From an uncultured Bacteroidales bacterium (GTDB lineage Bacteria; Bacteroidota; Bacteroidia; Bacteroidales; F082), in contig CAMYYD010000008.1 of the NCBI GenBank assembly GCA_947303395.1, positions 81,926-145,925 of the forward strand: DNA of 64,000 nucleotides. Direction: 5' to 3'. Each line of letters opens with the position of its first letter. Position 1 is the first letter of the stretch. The position numbers and the translations under genes are program-made. The notes beneath the pieces are model-generated. The model did not search any database and was not told where the DNA came from. It saw only the letters and a list, made by a program, of their open reading frames with translations. Below are positions 1,660-34,856 of this stretch, in pieces.

Positions 1660-4600
1660 TTATCTTACTACTATCTTTTGAGTTTTGATTTCTGTACCTA
1701 CAATTCTTAAAACATAAACTCCTTTTGATAGAGCATCAGCATTGAATGATTGTACGCCGTTGATGTATTCGCTCGTTACGAAGCGACCCATAACGTCGAA
1801 GATTTGGAGTTCACCATTGCCACGGACGATGATGTCGTTTCCGTTTTGATAGGCGAAGACGTCACTTTCGGTGTCGATGTTGGCCGCATTGTAGTTGAGG
1901 CGCAACACGAAACGGTCTTTACGGTCATTTGGTGTGCCAACAAATGTGTAGCTATCTTCAAGAAGCATATCAACATCGAGGTTTGCGACTTTGTCATATA
2001 GACTCATATAGCTATATTGACCTTCTGTTTTGATGCTGAAGGTGTATTGCCCCATTGTCTTAGCCTCGAAACCGATATTGATAACTTCGGTGTCGTCGCT
2101 CATGTCGGCGATTGCGTAGTTCTGACCGTTGTTAATGATATAGAGCATTGGAATTTCGCTGTTGCGGTGCTCAATCTTGTTCAAGCCGTGACCTTCGGCA
2201 AACATCACGTAGGCTTCATCGCTGCATTTGCTGTTCTTCACTGAGAACATTATGTTGTCTTTAGCGTAGTTAACGCCCTTGCTGCTACCAGCTGTGTTCT
2301 TAAATGTGATTGAAGCAGTTTCGTTTGTTGTCTGAACGAAGAAAGCCTGCATTGGTTTTACTGTGACGTTAGCGGCCAAAACAGCTTTCCATTTACCATG
2401 GTCGTTATCAGCAGGATCTTCGACCAGCATGTAGCAGCCTGTTGTTTCAACATTTGATAATGTCAAATTGCTCCATGAGATGTCGTGTGTGAATGGGTTG
2501 CCCACGAGATTTAAGCCTTTGTATGCTGCAATTCCATAGGCATATGACAAATCGGTATTAGAGATTTCGCCACTCGCATTGCCACCAGTTACATCGCCTG
2601 CAAGGTCAATTCCTTCCACACTTGAACGGTAGAGATAGCCACGTCCGATTGCAAGTTTTGTGAATGAATCAAGATAAGGTGCAACTGTGTTATTAGACCT
2701 GTACTCATTCCAATAGCTTGTAGGCTCGTCGAAACGGTAAACGTTGTGTGTGCCTTGAGCAAATGATGAAATTAAGATATCATTGACAGGTGATGCTATT
2801 GCATAAAGGTTATTAGCTACTGCTTTTTCAGTAGAAGAAGCCGCTGTAGTTTTTTTAACAGTAGCTTTCACGGTGTTATTGTTTTTTAGAATAAGCTGAC
2901 CGCCGTCTTCGATGATGAGGGTTCCACCATCTGCGATAGAAAGGGCGTGTGAACCCATATCCAAAACCGCATCTTTTGCTATGAGTGTTGGTCCTTCAAT
3001 GGTTATGTCGGCTGTTGCACTATTGTTACCCGTATAGACGTGGGTGTATGGTACAGCTTCAATCTTCTTGAAGAGATAGAAACCTCTATATTTTGTTTCA
3101 CCAGCATATCCTCGTATTGCGCCAGTACCAGTAGAATTCTCTGAAACTGTATAATATTTATTATTTTGGTAATTCTGCATATAGAGAGCACCCGTTGACA
3201 AGCCATTATCAAGGGCATAGAATTTCCACAAAATAGTGCTGTAATCCTTATCAAATGCAAGTGCACGAGATGAGGTAGCAGATGTATAACCTAAATATTT
3301 AGAGTCGTAACAAATTGTAAAACCATCAGAATTATTGCCTGATAATTCGAACTCAACTCCACCACTAGGAACTGTCGTATATATATTGTTAGTATTTGGT
3401 GCATGTTTATCAGAAGTAACAACGATATCTCCACTTGATATAGATCCAGTAGCTATAGAATATTCTATAGCTTCTGGCAATGTAGTAGCTCTTAATGCGG
3501 CGAATAAATATTTACCTGCTGTAATCTGACTTGTTGAAGTGATCAATTGATAGCCTGTTCCTGCTGGCACCAACACTGCATACAATGTTGCATCATCGTC
3601 TGGTGTGAAACTGTCTACAATTACTGTACTGCCTGCGCTTGTGCTCCAACCAGCAAGAGAGAATCCTGAAGGAAGCTCTACACTAGCAGCTTCAAGGTCG
3701 TCTTCATCCCAAAGACTGGCATTATTACCACATGTGATATTAGCATGGACCAAATCACTTTCGATAATTCCATTAACTGAATAATTAACTGTGAATTTCT
3801 TTTGTGTGAATGTTGCCGTTGCTGTGACAGGATAGCCTGGCATTTTAAATTGACCATTCTCATCAACATTTTCTGTCGTACTTTGATCACCTGTCTTATA
3901 AACTGTCCAACTTGTAAAGTCATAGCAATCGTCCAAATCAGAATAACTCAATGTGACTGTCGTTCCTTCTGAAGCGACCGACTTGTCAGCTGCGATAGTG
4001 CCACCTGTGGTCTGAACTAAAGAGATCGCATATGTTGCAACAGTGCTTACTGATCCTTGCAATGGCACGTTAACAGCATCAAGTGTTGTGGCTGTGAATG
4101 AAAGGTTGCCGTTGTAAGTGCCTTCATTATGACCAGCTGCCAAACGGATGTACAAGTCTGCAGCAACTGCACCTTGAGAAGGAGTCAGGTCAATATATTG
4201 TGCGTATGTTCCATTTTCTGTAGAGCAAACTTCATAACCTTGAGGAGCTGTAGCTCTGAGTGTATTAGTGCCCAAATCATCACATAAAACTTCAATATGC
4301 TGTGCTGCAGAAGGACCATTGTTGACAACGTATGAGAAAGCTGTCAATCCACTGAAATCTGTCAATGACATATCAGCTTTAAGAACGATATCGGCAGAAG
4401 TGCGAGGGTTAATTCTTAATGTAGAATTATTCAACACAAATACACCTGTGATATCATATGTTTTACCATTAGAAAGATAGTCGGCGTAATTATCAAGGAG
4501 TGTTTTATATGCTTGAACAGTTGTTGTTCCATCGGTAAGATTATAGTTGGTATAGTTACCTGAGGTTTCCTTGCTGCATGTAAGGTTGCTATAACTTACC

Positions 4601-6627
4601 AGAGCGCCTGTGTTAACAGCTTCGAGGTCTGCCATGGCTATGTCGGCAACTGTTACGTTTCCACCAGTATTAACTGTAAGACCAGATGTATTGCTTTTAA
4701 GCTCAGTAAGTTCAACAGCTCCATTATATTTTTGAGATTTACATTGTACAGTTCCACTAAGGATATCTCCGGCAGAGAATCCATGGCTAGACGCATATAT
4801 AATGCATCCCTTTGTTCCATCAGTTAGGAAGGCATGTGATGAGTTGTTTGCTCCTGAAATAACCCAATTATTGCCAAAAGTGATGTAAACAGTATGTTCG
4901 GCAGTATTAGTCATTGCATCATCATAAATAGCCTGCATGGTTGTGAATGGCTGGGTTATTGTGTATGCAGCCGATTTCAAAGCACTATATTCACCTTCCT
5001 TGTAAGCTCTAGCTTTTAATGTTGTAGTTGTAGCAATATCAACGGTAGTATTATTAACATATGTGTATGTTCCTTCTGCGTCTTTTGTCGGTAATGAGCC
5101 ATTAGTTGTGTAATAAATTGTGGCACCTGTCGTAGTGCAACCGATTGTAACATGCTGAGTTCCAATATATGCCTCGCCGTCAGGGTCGAATGTAGGAGTT
5201 GCAACTGTTGATGGTTTCCATTTAATGTTAATTGAATTTAAATAAAGTGCACCATTTGCCACAATACCTATATACTCATAATCACTAGTAATAGCAAGCG
5301 AAGTGTTTGTGCCCATTTTTATAGTGCCCAAGCTAGAAGCGGAAGACATATTAATAGAAGTAAATGCTGTGTTGCTTCCATATATAGTAATATAACGACC
5401 GCTAGTAGTATTAGTGTTCCAATCAACGGATATGCTTTTTACTTTACCACCAGAAGCAGTAGTTATGATTCCATTTCCAGTAGTATTATTCATTTGGATT
5501 GAATTGTAGTTGCCTGCAGTTTTACCAGCATAAACAGCTTGCGAATTGCTTGTTTTACCACTCCATGATGTATAAGTCGTTGAACCGTTCGTCACACCTG
5601 TTTTTGCACGGTCTAAAACATCATCAACAAAAACAGCAACTTCAGCTGTTACGATAACATCGGTGTCTGGCATTGTAAAGGTGTTGCCAACTATTGGAGT
5701 ATCATTAATGCTCCATATTGCGGAATAGCCATTATAGCCTTCTGCTGGATCGTATGTAAGAGTAATTGTTGAACCGTATTCATAATCACCACTTGCCGCA
5801 TTGCTTGCTGCGGAATATGTTCCGTAAGCATTAGAAGGCATTGTTATATTATGAGTATGAGGTGCCCATATCGCATACAATGTAATAGCTCCAGTGAGAT
5901 TAAATGTTGAGTTTGCTGCGTGACCAGTTCCTGAACCATTTGCTGCTTCATTCCATGTGCTAAAATCATAACCCGTTCTGGTGAAGCTTGGATTTTCATT
6001 GCTCTCAGGATTGTTTGCAAGAACAGTATAATTTCCAGCAGACTGTCCACTATGAGCGAAAGTTGCTGGAGTTTGAGAACCGTCATTGGCGTTGTAGGTC
6101 ACAGTGTAAGTAGTACCGCCGCCACCACCGCCAGTTGCAATTGTCACAGTAACCGTCTTTATCGTCTTATTACCACTTGTTTGACTGCATGTGAATTCAA
6201 CCGCAGTAACACCTCCAGATTGTGGCTGTGACCAAGTTTGACTTGATATACTTCCACCTGTTGAACTATATTCAGTTAATACACAAGATCCTGTAAAAGC
6301 AATGCTTTCAATTGTTCCGTTTGATGTAGCAATTTTAAATCTATTGCCGCTATAAGAACGTAGACCATCAGTTGTACTCCACCAGCGTAAGTTTGTACTA
6401 CCACTTCCTTTTGCTGTATATGTGAATGTGATATCTCCGTTAGTGAACACATCATTAACAGCTAAATCTGTACTGTTTGCTGGTGTTCCTGACCATCCAT
6501 AAGCATTTGAGTTTTGTGTAAAAGTAAATGTTGGATCTGTCTTTGTTTGTCCCACTACCATCTTCGGCTGGGCCATTATCAATATCGCGGCAATTGCTGC
6601 GATTAAGATTGTAAATGTTTTTTTCAT
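1660..6627 (-). CDS. 1655-residue T9SS-exported modular surface protein
   Basis: A signal peptide (about residues 1-27) is followed by a Listeria-Bacteroides (InlB B-type) repeat near 175-255 (TYTVTYNANDGS, then GYDFSTWN). A chitobiase/hexosaminidase C-terminal-like module lies near 485-560 (GATIYYTTNGSLPT), then an OB-fold-like region near 565-765 (TYDITGVFVL). The C-terminal module of about 350 residues ends in a type A Por sorting domain: DIIVRGNGELQIFDVMGRFV, then GVYVLRIVGTEIKTQKIVVR. In this system the protein crosses the inner membrane by Sec and the outer membrane by T9SS, where the tail is cleaved. The T9SS machinery is not in this window. The gene follows the structured RNA at 6691-6860 and precedes the small gene at 1319. 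The ligand is unknown. Confidence 0.9.
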   Translation of the reverse strand: MKKTFTILIAAIAAILIMAQPKMVVGQTKTDPTFTFTQNSNAYGWSGTPANSTDLAVNDVFTNGDITFTYTAKGSGSTNLRWWSTTDGLRSYSGNRFKIATSNGTIESIAFTGSCVLTEYSSTGGSISSQTWSQPQSGGVTAVEFTCSQTSGNKTIKTVTVTIATGGGGGGTTYTVTYNANDGSQTPATFAHSGQSAGNYTVLANNPESNENPSFTRTGYDFSTWNEAANGSGTGHAANSTFNLTGAITLYAIWAPHTHNITMPSNAYGTYSAASNAASGDYEYGSTITLTYDPAEGYNGYSAIWSINDTPIVGNTFTMPDTDVIVTAEVAVFVDDVLDRAKTGVTNGSTTYTSWSGKTSNSQAVYAGKTAGNYNSIQMNNTTGNGIITTASGGKVKSISVDWNTNTTSGRYITIYGSNTAFTSINMSSASSLGTIKMGTNTSLAITSDYEYIGIVANGALYLNSINIKWKPSTVATPTFDPDGEAYIGTQHVTIGCTTTGATIYYTTNGSLPTKDAEGTYTYVNNTTVDIATTTTLKARAYKEGEYSALKSAAYTITQPFTTMQAIYDDAMTNTAEHTVYITFGNNWVISGANNSSHAFLTDGTKGCIIYASSHGFSAGDILSGTVQCKSQKYNGAVELTELKSNTSGLTVNTGGNVTVADIAMADLEAVNTGALVSYSNLTCSKETSGNYTNYNLTDGTTTVQAYKTLLDNYADYLSNGKTYDITGVFVLNNSTLRINPRTSADIVLKADMSLTDFSGLTAFSYVVNNGPSAAQHIEVLCDDLGTNTLRATAPQGYEVCSTENGTYAQYIDLTPSQGAVAADLYIRLAAGHNEGTYNGNLSFTATTLDAVNVPLQGSVSTVATYAISLVQTTGGTIAADKSVASEGTTVTLSYSDLDDCYDFTSWTVYKTGDQSTTENVDENGQFKMPGYPVTATATFTQKKFTVNYSVNGIIESDLVHANITCGNNASLWDEDDLEAASVELPSGFSLAGWSTSAGSTVIVDSFTPDDDATLYAVLVPAGTGYQLITSTSQITAGKYLFAALRATTLPEAIEYSIATGSISSGDIVVTSDKHAPNTNNIYTTVPSGGVEFELSGNNSDGFTICYDSKYLGYTSATSSRALAFDKDYSTILWKFYALDNGLSTGALYMQNYQNNKYYTVSENSTGTGAIRGYAGETKYRGFYLFKKIEAVPYTHVYTGNNSATADITIEGPTLIAKDAVLDMGSHALSIADGGTLIIEDGGQLILKNNNTVKATVKKTTAASSTEKAVANNLYAIASPVNDILISSFAQGTHNVYRFDEPTSYWNEYRSNNTVAPYLDSFTKLAIGRGYLYRSSVEGIDLAGDVTGGNASGEISNTDLSYAYGIAAYKGLNLVGNPFTHDISWSNLTLSNVETTGCYMLVEDPADNDHGKWKAVLAANVTVKPMQAFFVQTTNETASITFKNTAGSSKGVNYAKDNIMFSVKNSKCSDEAYVMFAEGHGLNKIEHRNSEIPMLYIINNGQNYAIADMSDDTEVINIGFEAKTMGQYTFSIKTEGQYSYMSLYDKVANLDVDMLLEDSYTFVGTPNDRKDRFVLRLNYNAANIDTESDVFAYQNGNDIIVRGNGELQIFDVMGRFVTSEYINGVQSFNADALSKGVYVLRIVGTEIKTQKIVVR

Positions 6628-6690
6628 TTTGTTTTGTTAGATTTAGTTAATAAATTATTTTGTTTGATTATTTTGCTCAGAAAAAGACAT

Positions 6691-6860
6691 AAAAAAAACC
6701 GCGAACTTCTTTTGCGCAAGTTCGAGGTCGTAGGATTACCTTTAGCACGCCAACAAGAAAGCTCACGGTAAGTTCCGCGAGCGTCTTGGCTTTCATGAGC
6801 GTGCTGTTTGAAATTTCCTACGTTTCGAACTTGCCTCTGAAAAGCGAAAACGCTTTTATA
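6691..6860 (-). ncRNA. Structured RNA with intrinsic terminator, copy 1 (novel family candidate)
   Basis: The region folds into one long interrupted hairpin. Helices are 6716-6725 with 6825-6834, 6729-6735 with 6816-6822, 6744-6750 with 6799-6805, and an apical stem GCUCGCGG/CCGUGAGC. Flanking it are a GCG-loop-CGC hairpin (6841-6856) at the 5' end and, at the 3' end, CGAACTT/AAGTTCG (6724-6702) followed by eight T (6698-6691). Position 6716-6725 can pair either with the far arm or partly within this terminator, as in an attenuator. A second copy at 27697-27868 has the same layout with different helix sequences. Apical G-U pairs work only on the minus strand. A promoter lies upstream and the T9SS gene starts 64 bases downstream. 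It could be a leader or a free small RNA. Confidence 0.7.
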
Positions 6861-6944
6861 TGTCTATTTTTTACTTAATTTTTTCTATCTGTTTCTTTTT
6901 ATCTGTTTGATTATCAATATTGTTTTATTTTTTCATTTGACGGT

Positions 6945-6995
6945 GCAAAATTAGGAATAATTTTCACACAATTACAAATTGTTGAAAACTATTTT
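6945..6995. repeat. 51-bp direct repeat, left copy, flanking the ORF6N/PLD gene
   Basis: This stretch resembles 8077-8128. Both contain caaaatta, then aattttca, an acaa-rich hairpin, and ttgttgaaaactatttt. Read on the minus strand each is a small hairpin plus a promoter. The two copies bracket the ORF6N gene exactly. Confidence 0.6.
6946..6978 (-). promoter_or_regulatory. Promoter of structured RNA copy 1 and the 1655-residue T9SS gene
   Basis: The minus strand carries TTTG (6978-6975), a 21-base spacer, then TAATTTTG (6953-6946). This is close to the ideal Bacteroidota promoter. Transcription would start about 80 bases before the structured RNA. Confidence 0.7.
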
Positions 6996-26600: not shown

Positions 26601-27653
26601 TTATAATCCGTTAATCATTATATGAACGTTTCCTAATCCTTGAGCTTTATTAGAGCATTTAACTCCACACTCACTACGAAATGTTTTTATCATTTCTCTT
26701 GCCCAATTATAAGAACTATATTGTGTGCCATCTGATTTCAGGACAGGAATTCTAACATTGACAAAATATAACTCGTAATCCGTGTTCGTCTGCATTTTAT
26801 AGGTGCCTTTTTTAGCGTGAAAATCCATATAATCCATAATCCAATCGCTGTATGTATCTCCAGTAATAGACTCACTTGACAAATTGATATTTGATTTTGG
26901 TGAAACAGTAATACGAACCGTTATTTCACGACCATTGGTGACAATATCCTTGAAATACTTACCAATTTCTCTTTCTATATCCTTAATATTTTTACAAAAC
27001 GATTGCACAAAAGTCGTAACAATATCTTTAGTAGATGTTTCTTTTATCGTCTTTGAAGAAAATGCCTTGTTAGTATATGCATCAAAAGCTGTAATAGTGT
27101 ATGATATGTTTTTCTTAAAATTTGGATCCATTACGTCTATTTTGCTGGCGTAATCAAGTTCAATAATTATGTCTGGCGATGCTGTTTGCAGCAATAAAGT
27201 CTTAGCATCCTGCGCAACTCCATCTGCTAAATTTGTCGCCTCCCTGTTTTGAAGCTGTTTCAATGTTTGTTCAAGGTCATTCAACGGATAGTCCATTTGA
27301 ACAAATTCATTTTGAATGATTGAAATAATGGCTTTATTGTCTTTGTTAGCCAATATATATTTGTTATAATCACGATCCAAAAAACTGCCTCCGTTTATCG
27401 AGACTGTTTTAATTGCATCATATAAAAGCAAAAGATTATCACTTGGCAACACCATAATTGAGGGTTTTGCCTGTTCAATAGCGTTAACAACAGTGTTTTC
27501 TTTTATTTCAGCTGCATTTCCGTAATTTGTCAGTTTTTGTTGTTGACCGTTATTTTCACATGAATAGCTGATTAGCATAATCAACAAGCACATAGCGCTT
27601 GTTTTAAACGCAAAAAATATTTTATTGACCGTTCTTTTGTATTTTTCAATCAT
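26601..27653 (-). CDS. DUF6175-like lipoprotein, 350 residues
   Basis: The signal peptide ends in LLIMLISYSCENNG, a lipobox-like site. The rest resembles Bacteroidales DUF6175 proteins: KPSIMVLPSDNLLLLYDAIK near the start, then YPLNDLEQTLKQLQNREATN, SPDIIIELDYASKI, SYTITAFDAYTNKAF and DIVTNGREITVRITV. No biochemical role is known for this family. It is the first gene of a four-gene operon and sits directly downstream of structured RNA copy 2. Location is probably the outer or inner membrane, facing the periplasm. Confidence 0.7.
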   Translation of the reverse strand: MIEKYKRTVNKIFFAFKTSAMCLLIMLISYSCENNGQQQKLTNYGNAAEIKENTVVNAIEQAKPSIMVLPSDNLLLLYDAIKTVSINGGSFLDRDYNKYILANKDNKAIISIIQNEFVQMDYPLNDLEQTLKQLQNREATNLADGVAQDAKTLLLQTASPDIIIELDYASKIDVMDPNFKKNISYTITAFDAYTNKAFSSKTIKETSTKDIVTTFVQSFCKNIKDIEREIGKYFKDIVTNGREITVRITVSPKSNINLSSESITGDTYSDWIMDYMDFHAKKGTYKMQTNTDYELYFVNVRIPVLKSDGTQYSSYNWAREMIKTFRSECGVKCSNKAQGLGNVHIMINGL

Positions 27654-27696
27654 TTTGTTATTCTTTTTGTATTATCCAATTTTCCTTTTTGACAAT

Positions 27697-27868
27697 AAAA
27701 AAAACCGTGAAACTTTTTGTTCTGAAACTGAGGTTCGGCAAAACCTTTACTACTGAACAAGAAAGCCCACGGCAATCGTGAGCGTTTCTCCTTTCTTGAA
27801 GTAGTAAAGAACTAAAATTTGCCGATTTCAGTTTCAACAAGAAAAGCGAAAACGCCTTTTTATATGTC
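27697..27868 (-). ncRNA. Structured RNA, copy 2 (novel family candidate)
   Basis: It has the same plan and nearly the same length as copy 1 at 6691-6860. Helices are 27723-27731 with 27828-27836, 27736-27742 with 27818-27824, 27745-27753 with 27801-27809, 27758-27765 with 27791-27798, and the apical stem GCUCACG/CGUGGGC (27783-27777 with 27771-27765). The helix sequences differ from copy 1 but stay paired. Conserved are the GCUUUCUUGUU strand, the AAAGGU and ACCUC joints, and the GCG-UUUUCGC hairpin at the 5' end (27861-27842). An eight-T tract lies at 27704-27697. The apical U-G pair exists only on the minus strand. A promoter lies upstream and the DUF6175 operon starts 43 bases downstream. 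Confidence 0.7.
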
Positions 27869-27923
27869 TTTAAATTCTTTTACTTTTTTCTGTTTCTTAA
27901 TTACTTTTTAGATTTAACCCTGC

Positions 27924-27954
27924 AAAGATAGGGATTTTTTTGAACAAAACAAAA
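27924..27954 (-). promoter_or_regulatory. Promoter of structured RNA copy 2 and the DUF6175 operon
   Basis: The minus strand carries TTTG (27954-27951), a 19-base spacer and TATCTTTG (27931-27924), an ideal Bacteroidota promoter about 55 bases upstream of the RNA. Confidence 0.75.
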
Positions 27955-27997
27955 TTATTTTGAAAATGTGGCTGACATTTCGAAAAATACAAAATCC

Positions 27998-28054
27998 AAC
28001 CGCCTTTGTAGTAGAGTAGCACCGTAATCGGGTTAGCAAACTACAAAGGCGGTT
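27998..28054. terminator. 15-bp-stem hairpin, probable terminator
   Basis: AACCGCCTTTGTAGT (27998-28012) pairs perfectly with ACTACAAAGGCGGTT (28040-28054) around a 27-base loop. It lies 20 bases after the extended ORF6N frame and upstream of the promoter of copy 2. T-rich sequence occurs on both sides. Confidence 0.55.
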
Positions 28055-28074
28055 TCTATTTTTATATCTTCGTC

Positions 28075-28653
28075 CTAATATTCTCCGTTATCTCTCCGTT
28101 TTTGAATGGCATTATATCCTATTTCAGGCAATGGAGATTGTTGCATTCCAATTTGAGTAAGAGTTTCATAAACTTGTTCCAAATCTTGCTGAGAATCTTC
28201 AAGTGCCTTAACTCGCTGTTTTAAATCTTCAACATCTCTTTACGTTGCAATAAGTGGTAACGCATGACGAATAGCCACAAAAGCTCGTGTTATTTTAATA
28301 CTCATGTCGACTGCAATTGAACTATGCAGAACGCTTGACAACATAAGTGCACCATGTTCAGTAAACGCCATTGGTAAAGCCGATTTTGGACGTTTTGCTC
28401 TTGATGTCATCACAAAATGTGATGAGATACTTGCCCATTCTTTTTCAGTAATTTTGAACATAAAATCATCAGGAAAACGTTTAATATTACGCTTTACAGC
28501 TTGATTTAGAGCACGTGTTTCAACTCTGTACAAATCTGCTAAATCAAAATCAAGCATTACACGTAACCCTCGCAATTCAAAAATCTTTTGTTTAATAGCT
28601 TCTAACCCATCATTAGGATTACATTCATTTTCGTAAAACTCATTGTTTGCCAT
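28075..28653 (-). pseudogene. ORF6N domain protein interrupted by an in-frame TAA
   Basis: Residues 1-137 (28653-28243) hold an ORF6N domain (IFELRGLRVMLDFDLADLYR, RNIKRFPDDFMFKITEKEW, AFTEHGALMLSSVLHS). After IRHALPLIAT comes TAA (28242-28240). The frame then continues with RDVEDLKQRVKALEDSQQDL and EQVYETLTQIGMQQSPLPEI, stopping at 28075. Relatives run straight through this joint, often with Glu, so a GAA to TAA change would explain it. This is the second ORF6N gene in the window cut at the border between the N-terminal domain and the tail. The short form may still be functional. Confidence 0.75.
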
Positions 28654-33789: not shown

Positions 33790-33797
33790 TATCTTTG
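33790..33797 (+). promoter_or_regulatory. -7 promoter element for the structured leader at 33.8-34.06 kb
   Basis: TATCTTTG, followed within 30 bases by the AGACATAT element that also precedes structured RNAs 1 and 2. Confidence 0.6.
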
Positions 33798-33824: not shown

Positions 33825-34057
33825 GACATATTAAGAAAAGGCGTTGTACTACGCTTTATCTGCGGCTACTCGAATCTGGTAAATTCAAATCATCCGCAAG
33901 GTAGAGCAATTAGCGACGTTCACTTGTATGATTATACATTTTCCAAAATTTGTATATCTTACAGCGTGGGCTTCGGTGTTGCTTATCCTCGGATGATGGG
34001 CATACCAGAGCCTGAGTAGCGGGGTGAGCAAAGTTCTGACTCCCACGCTTCTTTTTT
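33825..34057 (+). ncRNA. Structured leader or small RNA ending in an intrinsic terminator (third candidate)
   Basis: After the promoter come GACATATTAAG, a GCGT-loop-ACGC hairpin (33836-33857), as in copies 1 and 2, and then about 110 bases of mixed structure. A long terminal fold follows. AGCGTGGG (33963-33970) can pair with CCCACGCT (34042-34049), and TTGCTTATCC (33979-33988) with GGGGTGAGCAA (34021-34031). CTCGG pairs with CCTGAG inside. TTTTTT at 34052-34057 completes a terminator. AGCGGGGTGAG can instead pair with CTCCCACGCT, so two exclusive folds exist. Sequence similarity to copies 1 and 2 is limited to the 5' end, so family membership is uncertain. The gene at 34122 starts 64 bases downstream. 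Confidence 0.55.
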
Positions 34058-34121
34058 GTATGTTCCTAAACAATTGATTAACAAATTTCGGGATTGGGAG
34101 CTCCCATAAATGAGTAGGACT

Positions 34122-34856
34122 ATGAAAACTCAAAAGCTATTCCTAATCGTCTCGCTGCTTTTCGTAGCAGGTATTACCAAAGCACAAGATGTCATTGTTA
34201 AAAAAGACAGCTCAACAATTCTAAGCAAAGTAATTGAAGTCAGTAGTTCCGAAATTAAATACAAAAAATGGTCAAATTTAGATGGACCTACGTATTCGAT
34301 TAGTCGTAGTGAGATTGTAAGTATCAACTATCAAAATGGAGAAGTCGAAAAGTTTGAAAACAGTTCATCTAATCCTACAATTATACAACAAAACAACAGC
34401 TCCAAGAATGGATACATGGAACGCGACGGTAATAGTTTAACACTTGATGGACGTTATATGTCAGATGAAGAAGTTCATGCACTCGTTGGAGATGCCAACT
34501 ACAAAACTTATATGAGTGCAAAAAGACAAATAAATGGTGGAGGATTTTTTACAGCAACATTCATTATTTCATTAGTTGGAACTGTAGGATTGGCAGCATA
34601 TTCCATTACCAATAAAGATCCTTCTCTTTTACAGAGTGTTTATATCACTGGTGCAGTTGCGGATATCAGTTTATTATTAATGTGTATTCTCAATGGTGCT
34701 GGTAAAGGACGTATGGATTGGGTAGCAAATGAATACAACAGAAAAAATAGTGGTTATGGGTATTCGTATAATCTTTCTCCATCAATTATGACAAGTAAAA
34801 CGCCACAACTGCAAAACAGTTACGGTTTGGGAGTGACATTTAGTTTGAAGTTCTAA
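34122..34856 (+). CDS. Exported protein with KDGST-like beta domain, 244 residues
   Basis: The signal peptide is MKTQKLFLIVSLLFVAGITK, ending before AQD. The next 60 residues (DVIVKKDSSTILSKVIEV, SEIKYKKWSNLDGPTYSISR, IVSINYQNGEVEKF) match a short beta-rich module common in Bacteroidota exported proteins. Two hydrophobic stretches near 150-200 (GGGFFTATFIISLVGTVGLA) suggest membrane insertion. The end YGLGVTFSLKF has the alternating pattern and final Phe of an outer-membrane strand. The start at 34122 is preferred to the ATG at 34110 because the signal peptide begins there. Function unknown. Confidence 0.65.
   Translation: MKTQKLFLIVSLLFVAGITKAQDVIVKKDSSTILSKVIEVSSSEIKYKKWSNLDGPTYSISRSEIVSINYQNGEVEKFENSSSNPTIIQQNNSSKNGYMERDGNSLTLDGRYMSDEEVHALVGDANYKTYMSAKRQINGGGFFTATFIISLVGTVGLAAYSITNKDPSLLQSVYITGAVADISLLLMCILNGAGKGRMDWVANEYNRKNSGYGYSYNLSPSIMTSKTPQLQNSYGLGVTFSLKF

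Follow-up and report, generated by a model that had tools for sequence, protein, structure and literature searches.

A putative family of structured mRNA leaders in Bacteroidota predicted to attenuate transcription by exchange of one strand between two folds

The question raised by this locus is whether a structured element occurring in the window (the whole 64,000-nucleotide stretch of DNA analyzed) is an RNA of a known class, a cis-acting leader or a trans-acting RNA. As stated in the original prediction, two copies were present in the window, at 6691 to 6860 (copy A) and 27697 to 27868 (copy B), both on the minus strand, and they were alike and could be aligned. Both exhibited the GCG..CGC 5' hairpin, the long helix, the apical stem, the GCUUUCUUGUU sequence and the eight-T tract (6691 to 6698 and 27697 to 27704) ascribed to them. 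The covariance-model boundaries of the whole leader RNAs were 6683 to 6867 for copy A (150.8 bits with the refined model R2, described below) and 27689 to 27869 for copy B (161.9 bits). The promoter claimed upstream was found as a promoter-like -7 box of the TAnnTTTG type, TAATTTTG at 6946 to 6953 for copy A and TATCTTTG at 27923 to 27930 for copy B, both on the minus strand. The exported-protein gene claimed downstream was also found in each case. Copy A precedes an open reading frame (ORF) of 1655 amino acids (1660 to 6627, minus strand) with an exported-type start, repeat domains (Pfam) and a weak Por secretion tail scoring below its cut-off, and copy B precedes a 350-amino-acid DUF6175 protein (26601 to 27653, minus strand; Pfam E value of 3.7e-62) with a lipoprotein-like start. 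The minus strand was indicated as the RNA by the promoter box, the gene orientation and the model; folding energy by itself does not settle the question for copy A (-70.2 for minus versus -73.0 for plus; the values for copy B were -63.5 and -57.2).

Using copy A as a DNA query, four places were found in its own genome (2.42 Mb, 40 contigs), and a covariance model (R1) was built from these four copies. At E values up to 10, R1 produced nine matches in this genome: the four copies themselves at 165 to 174 bits, one on contig C15 at 49.7 bits and four below 25 bits. With the refined model R2, comprising 74 sequences, the C15 copy reached 89 bits and a copy on C7 was added (65.7 bits), giving at least seven copies, three on C8 and one each on C4, C6, C7 and C15. 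The two copies first described are therefore real but are not the full set; a third copy in the window (33826 to 34064, plus strand; R2, 39.1 bits, E value of 5.2e-6), divergent and with an enlarged apical arm, had been missed, as had those on C4, C6, C15 and C7. The C6 copy (L004) exhibits only a 30-base DNA match to copy A and yet has a similar fold, and a DNA search alone therefore undercounts the family. It was also observed that copy A (window 6600 to 6960) and the C4 copy (L002:1380-1790) have the promoter box, the leader and the signal-peptide start in common, and the whole expression cassette has likely been duplicated recently.

Among 119 relatives, R1 (E value of at most 1e-3) matched 77, made up of 64 of the 72 within the genus and 13 of the 47 others of the order. 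With R2 (E value of at most 1e-6), matches were obtained in 65 of 295 genomes from a sample of the class, representing 39 of 156 genera, and in 34 of 296 from a sample of the phylum, five of these 34 lying outside the class; the two samples overlap, and the own genome is included in both. In these searches the element occurred across many families, with up to 18 model matches in a single genome (G087). None of five genomes from other phyla was matched by R2, a weak control given that the same search held no positive genome. A pattern scan of the genome collection with an overlong gap setting returned six stretches, of which only L116, from a Sphingobacteriales metagenome-assembled genome, was confirmed as a member by R2. 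Plasmid pB3-10 of Rhizosphaericola mali (Chitinophagaceae; R2, 101.8 bits) was the single hit of a plasmid/phage BLAST search, and the other plasmid/phage BLAST searches gave no match. These two named members, together with the TAnnTTTG boxes, point to Bacteroidota as the likely phylum of the matched genomes. Members were present on viral contigs of 75.6 kb (L123, 74.0 bits) and 62 kb (L124, 60.9 bits) found by pattern scan and scored with R2; none of five further stretches from a separate viral scan was scored by R2 at E values up to 1, and a third viral pattern scan found no stretch. In G041 and in G056, the latter among the eight genus genomes with no model match, the same anatomy could be made out by eye at the DUF6175 locus although the model had missed it there, and the counts are thus floors. 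In one leader two elements were found in tandem (L077:2292-2469 and 2515-2708, minus strand; 48.1 and 112.4 bits), an arrangement comparable to that of tandem riboswitches.

For the analysis of pairing, 172 entries were reduced to 164 by dropping those whose X' strand (see below) was shorter than 7 nt, by dropping the rows from the window, which duplicated L006 and L008, and by keeping one per locus; removal of 13 duplicates of X' plus tail then left 151 members. Of these, 54 near members had been picked by R1 score and 97 far members by R2 E value, so that all counts refer to recognizable members only. The element comprises about 180 RNA bases arranged, from 5' to 3', as P0 (AAAGCGUU..GCUUU), P1, the hairpin hpA (GAAA, a 7-nt loop, UUU), P3, P4, the apical stem X:X' (GCUCACG..CGUGGGC), P4' (UUUCUUGUU within the genus), P3', the hairpin hpB (GGU, a 7-nt loop, ACCU), P1', a linker, X'' and the U tract. 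In copy A, all on the minus strand, these parts include P0 (AAAAGCGUUUUCGCUUUU; 6840 to 6857), hpA (GAAA[CGUAGGA]AAUUUC; 6810 to 6826), the 5' strand of the apical stem, X (6775 to 6782), X' (6761 to 6768), the conserved P4' (6752 to 6760), hpB (AGGU[..UCCUACG]ACCU; 6725 to 6741), X'' (6699 to 6706) and the U tract (6691 to 6698). The corresponding parts of copy B, likewise on the minus strand, are P0 (27842 to 27860), hpA (27814 to 27829), the 5' strand of P4 (CAAGAAAG; 27791 to 27798), X (27776 to 27783), X' (27765 to 27772), P4' (UUUCUUGUU, immediately 3' of X'; 27756 to 27764), hpB (27731 to 27746), X'' (27705 to 27712) and the U tract (27697 to 27704).

The claim that the helices differ between copies and still pair held for the four own-genome copies, in which 11 of 41 predicted pairs had changed on both sides with pairing kept. 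It also held in the wider, search-derived alignment that had been proposed as a check: over 101 aligned members (the rows of alignment A5), standard pairs occupied 89.8% of 4498 cells, versus 64.1% after shuffling and 32 to 47% with the partners slid, and both-side changes were found in 43 of 46 pairs, figures that lean toward structure because the alignment was fitted to the model. The hpA and hpB loops were 7-bp Watson-Crick complements in 146 of the 151 members, where permutation expects 5.5, with 64 distinct 5' strands and only one G-U among 707 cells (about 7% in P1). Local stems of at least 4 bp were present for hpA in 124 of 151 members and for hpB in 104 of 151, those of hpB including AGGU/ACCU, GGGC/GCCU, AGGC/GCCU and GGG/CCC. 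Since local stems stand on both sides, hpA and hpB look like a predicted loop-loop kiss, a better reading than a continuous rod; the hpB stems, when G-U was allowed, were not in excess over permutation (195 of 1000 permutations reached the observed mean).

The sequence also permits a second fold, a terminator, which was absent from the original prediction. The strand X'-UUUCUUGUU is complementary upstream to X and CAAGAAAG and downstream to the linker and X''. In copy A, X' can thus partner either X, in what we call the read-through fold, or X'', the 3' strand of the terminator stem; P4' pairs toward the 5' side in the rod or with the 3' linker in the terminator; hpB forms the terminator tip; the U tract completes a predicted intrinsic terminator; and the 5' strand of P0 has the X''/U-tract region as its alternative partner. 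In the divergent third copy the promoter-like box (TATCTTTG; 33790 to 33797), the X' region (33959 to 33971), X'' (CUCCCACGC; 34040 to 34048) and the U-rich tract (34049 to 34057), all on the plus strand, are plain in the sequence, and its 3' part folds as a terminator at -42.3 kcal/mol. It is followed by an ORF of 248 amino acids with an exported-type start (34110 to 34856, plus strand; from the translation), whose product resembled, by eye, that of the gene under element L016.

The X':X'' pairs had not been written into R1 or R2. Over all members, X' paired with its own tail at -12.5 kcal/mol, compared with -10.1 kcal/mol for permuted tails. The corresponding values were -13.2 and -12.2 kcal/mol for the 97 far members, -11.4 and -10.8 kcal/mol for the 54 near members and -11.8 and -9.0 kcal/mol for a subset of 25 far members whose X' is unusual (0 of 5000 permutations in each case), a significance inflated by kinship among the sequences, which the near/far split reduces but does not remove. 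Strands were seen to change together, GGGUGGGC occurring with CCACCCC (L103, L135) and ACGUGGGC with CCCACGU (L081). Covariation was strong for X':X'' and the rod helices and modest for X:X', in which five of eight pairs changed on both sides, in few members, and three on one side only. The own tail gave a stronger terminator than the mean swapped tail in 95 of 97 far members and in 40 of 54 near members, the own tails of the latter being only modestly better, and among the near members X':tail pairing was stronger than X:X' in 14 of 54.

When the 3' part was folded alone, 149 of 151 members formed the X':X'' stem, a test also passed by random windows, whose first 8 nt paired with the end in 53 of 302. 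In example folds the stem was extended by P4' and the linker with hpB at its tip; its median length was 19 pairs, followed by about six U in eight bases, and at least five U were found within 8 nt of the stem in 142 of 148 cases. Full-length folds, in contrast, kept X:X' in 143 of 151 members and made X':X'' in three, and the read-through fold was thermodynamically favored in 151 of 151, by a median of 17.8 kcal/mol. The first 24 nt paired with their own tail beyond permutation in both the near and the far set (0 of 5000 each), and the tail was capped by at least six pairs with the 5' end in 106 of 151 full-length folds, 5' end:tail pairs having been built into R1, which selected the near members. 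P0, X and X'' would therefore compete in mutually exclusive pairings. Sequence and folding thus provided the features of an attenuating leader, namely, a promoter-to-gene position, a terminator that can form and an exclusive antiterminator, with covariation for both.

The promoter-to-gene position was general. The element started a median of 57 nt after a TAnnTTTG box and ended a median of 36 nt before a same-strand gene. Of 150 members, 123 had such a box in the 100 nt upstream, compared with 16 for the reverse complement and three for a downstream window. Under an ORF rule that required at least 80 amino acids and a start no more than 35 nt before or 200 nt after the end of the match, a same-strand ORF start was found in 129 of 151 members, an opposite-strand start in two and none in 20; among these 20, TonB receptors lay farther off in L087 and L096, and a shorter gene was present in L075. 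A second TAnnTTTG box between the element and the ORF was found in only one of the 129.

We therefore propose, with a probability of a little under 80%, that the element belongs to a family of mRNA leaders predicted to regulate the next gene by transcription attenuation, one strand being swapped between two exclusive folds. In the read-through fold, the 5' half would hold X'-P4' in the long arm, hpA and hpB would kiss through a 7-bp loop-loop helix, and P0 would cap X'' and the U tract. In the stop fold, X'-P4' would instead pair with the 3' end, and the hpB-tipped stem together with the U tract would act as an intrinsic terminator. Expression would depend on what allows or prevents capture of the switching strand by the 5' half, be it a ligand, a protein or the kinetics of cotranscriptional folding. 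Because the read-through fold wins thermodynamically in every member, the stop fold would need kinetics or a factor; accordingly, the signal would most likely turn the gene off, unless the two folds are chosen kinetically. Either the read-through fold would be contested during transcription, or a signal occupying the 5' half would free X'-P4' for the terminator.

The genes under this putative control include restriction-modification, SNF2/PLD helicase, TonB receptor, ECF sigma and exported-protein genes. Of 48 near downstream proteins, 21 matched ResIII, 18 PLDc_2 and four N6_Mtase (Pfam, among the matches listed), and 17 matched the PADLOC HKD+Snf2 model, the near set being rich in one helicase family and not an unbiased census. 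The far set of 85 proteins (81 obtained with the ORF rule, L095 left out and five added by hand) included four with a TonB Plug, three each with N6_N4_Mtase, N6_Mtase, Response_reg and RibD_C and two each with MmeI, HSDR_N and sigma-70, again among the Pfam matches listed. Many proteins of both sets were cut by locus ends, and 25 of 38 Pfam families were listed for each set. By a crude rule, 32 of the 81 far ORFs and 16 of the 48 near ones had an exported-like start. It was noticed by eye that in five restriction-modification loci (L086, L090, L093, L098 and L109), CACAAAAA before the start codon complements the U tract plus GUG, a pairing that may possibly add control of translation start.

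The leader was retained with DUF6175, the gene under copy B. R2 scored 97.7, 33.2, 36.4 and 34.4 bits immediately before homologues sharing 79%, 73% and, in two cases, 40% identity, respectively, and upstream of two more (71% and 73% identity) the anatomy was recognized by eye, whereas 12 remoter homologues gave no match. Upstream of these six homologues (40 to 79% identity) the element was kept while its sequence was replaced, which argues for function. In the family of the gene at L017, a match was present at 11 of 25 loci searched, both matches at L226 not adjoining the gene. Four homologues at 54 to 58% identity (L226, L228, L241 and L248) had no element just upstream, and three of these four were seen by eye to sit right behind another ORF. 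The two copies at L226 (610-813 and 3289-3492, minus strand) lie within 3.9 kb and flank the L017 homologue, adjoining it on neither side. From these sequences, genes also appear to gain or lose the leader, and the association with gene families is not fixed.

We next considered whether the element belongs to a catalogued class. No Rfam 15 family reached its cut-off in the window, and the 25 member loci searched at E values up to 1 gave two hits, both below cut-off, to other families and away from the element; described riboswitch families likewise had no match over cut-off in the window or these loci. Terminator-type riboswitches and attenuators are similar in having a structured 5' leader, an antiterminator and intrinsic terminator that share a strand, and a U tract before the gene; the element differs in its three overlapping pairings (X:X', X':X'' and P0:X''), its mixed gene set and the lack of an Rfam 15 match. 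The yxjA-type purine riboswitch has kissing hairpins and is smaller and purine-related. The part of the published account that is accessible describes its cotranscriptional strand exchange (PMC9756952), and to that extent it resembles the element in strand exchange as well as in kissing hairpins, the element differing in its extra P3-P5 arm and its other genes. Bacteroidales-1 (RF01693), given in the accessible text as 179 positions long and found in Bacteroidales (PMC2864571), is similar in length and occurrence; it was rejected, as RF01693 matched nothing in the own genome at E values up to 1 and nothing in the 25 member loci. HMP2_4205 and HMP2_1032, palindromic Bacteroidetes candidates of 132 and 106 bp described in the accessible part of PMC8040213 as predicted terminators near TPR or TonB genes, share those two traits, predicted terminators and Bacteroidetes, with the element and are set apart by described length only. 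No description of the element was recognized in the accessible portions of the open PMC literature, including PMC9723704 and PMC10994844, and it may still be listed in a supplement. As far as these searches reach, the element represents a new class within a known kind, most probably an uncatalogued transcription attenuator of the riboswitch-like leader type. The original view of a new-looking structured RNA acting as a cis leader, whether attenuator or riboswitch, is thus supported, with the Rfam result, the covariation and the box-to-gene position all consistent with it. If right, a large cis-regulatory RNA class has gone unlisted in one phylum, and restriction and other defense-type genes are tied to a leader-RNA decision; the alignment is ready, the two-fold mechanism is testable, and the question of which signal these bacteria use to open such genes can be approached directly.

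In the strict metabolite riboswitch, a sub-case of the proposed attenuator, the kissing-hairpin junction would be the aptamer and X'/X'' the expression platform. A kissing-hairpin junction followed by antiterminator/terminator exchange is riboswitch-like anatomy, and the broad distribution and tandem copies fit; the gene set, however, is too mixed for a single pathway, and the conserved unpaired bases are few, which is weak for a metabolite pocket and makes a device that works through a protein or through kinetics equally conceivable. We regard this sub-case as a tentative possibility. Similarly speculative is a wider scheme, in which a riboswitch-like class with a kissing-hairpin sensor, spread through one bacterial class, might read one general signal (e.g., infection or growth state) and jointly control Bacteroidota immune genes (restriction-modification, SNF2/PLD helicase) and surface-protein genes by three-way strand exchange; we would sooner doubt than adopt it.

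The original prediction had left a choice between a cis leader and a duplicated trans-acting RNA, and the former part stood while the latter became less likely. A trans-acting small RNA (5'-UTR-derived, a stand-alone sRNA or a 6S-like RNA polymerase ligand) would end at the U tract, and the downstream gene would be incidental. The element does have its own promoter-like box, a terminator-like 3' end, tandem copies (L077) and a long bulged rod with a 6S-like outline, but the close same-strand gene start, the near absence of an intervening box and the retention upstream of DUF6175 homologues despite replaced sequence speak against incidental neighbors, and we consider this reading unlikely. Doubt about 6S RNA itself had been voiced from the start. 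The 6S outline is a long interrupted rod of about 180 nt, and the element shares this length and rod with 6S and 6S-Flavo (RF00013 and RF01685); it differs in occurring in several copies as leaders, in X'/X'' switching and in having no Rfam match. On the own genome RF00013 gave no hit, its positive controls being recovered in only six of 14, and RF01685 gave a single hit elsewhere (C15:24985-25116; 28.7 bits versus a cut-off of 85), with one of 14 controls recovered and none over cut-off. With no covariance-model match at the element, 6S RNA was rejected, the positive controls of both models being weak here.

Very unlikely is a leader-peptide attenuator, in which a ribosome on a short ORF would decide the fold. 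Mini-ORFs such as AUG-AAA-UAA do precede P0 in some members, and the accessible part of PMC7366714 proposes leaders of this kind in other Bacteroides 5' UTRs; closed mini-ORFs between the box and P0, however, were at chance (44 of 123 versus 40.2 shuffled), and AUG was depleted in that interval (44 versus 68.9 shuffled), so that a conserved short ORF was not found and this reading is disfavored. Hardly any weight can be given to a mobile palindrome of the MITE or REP type that inserted in front of many genes. In its favor are the multiple copies within a genome, the AGACATA...TATGTCT ends of some members from the genus and the absence upstream of some homologues of genes that carry the element elsewhere. 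Against it, the element has a fixed orientation and a fixed distance to box and gene, it is kept with compensatory change upstream of the DUF6175 homologues at 40 to 79% identity, and the terminal inverted repeats are not conserved (UAUGUC ends in seven of 54 near and none of 97 far tails).

Two further features were observed around the elements. A GC-rich inverted repeat, CCGCCTTTGTAGT..ACTACAAAGGCGG (window 27990 to 28055), lies between the copy B promoter box and an ORF at 28240 to 28653 and looks like a terminator. The motif GCYUAUGANAUAR recurs upstream of P0 in L009, L077, L079, L080 and L081, which represent several families of the order.
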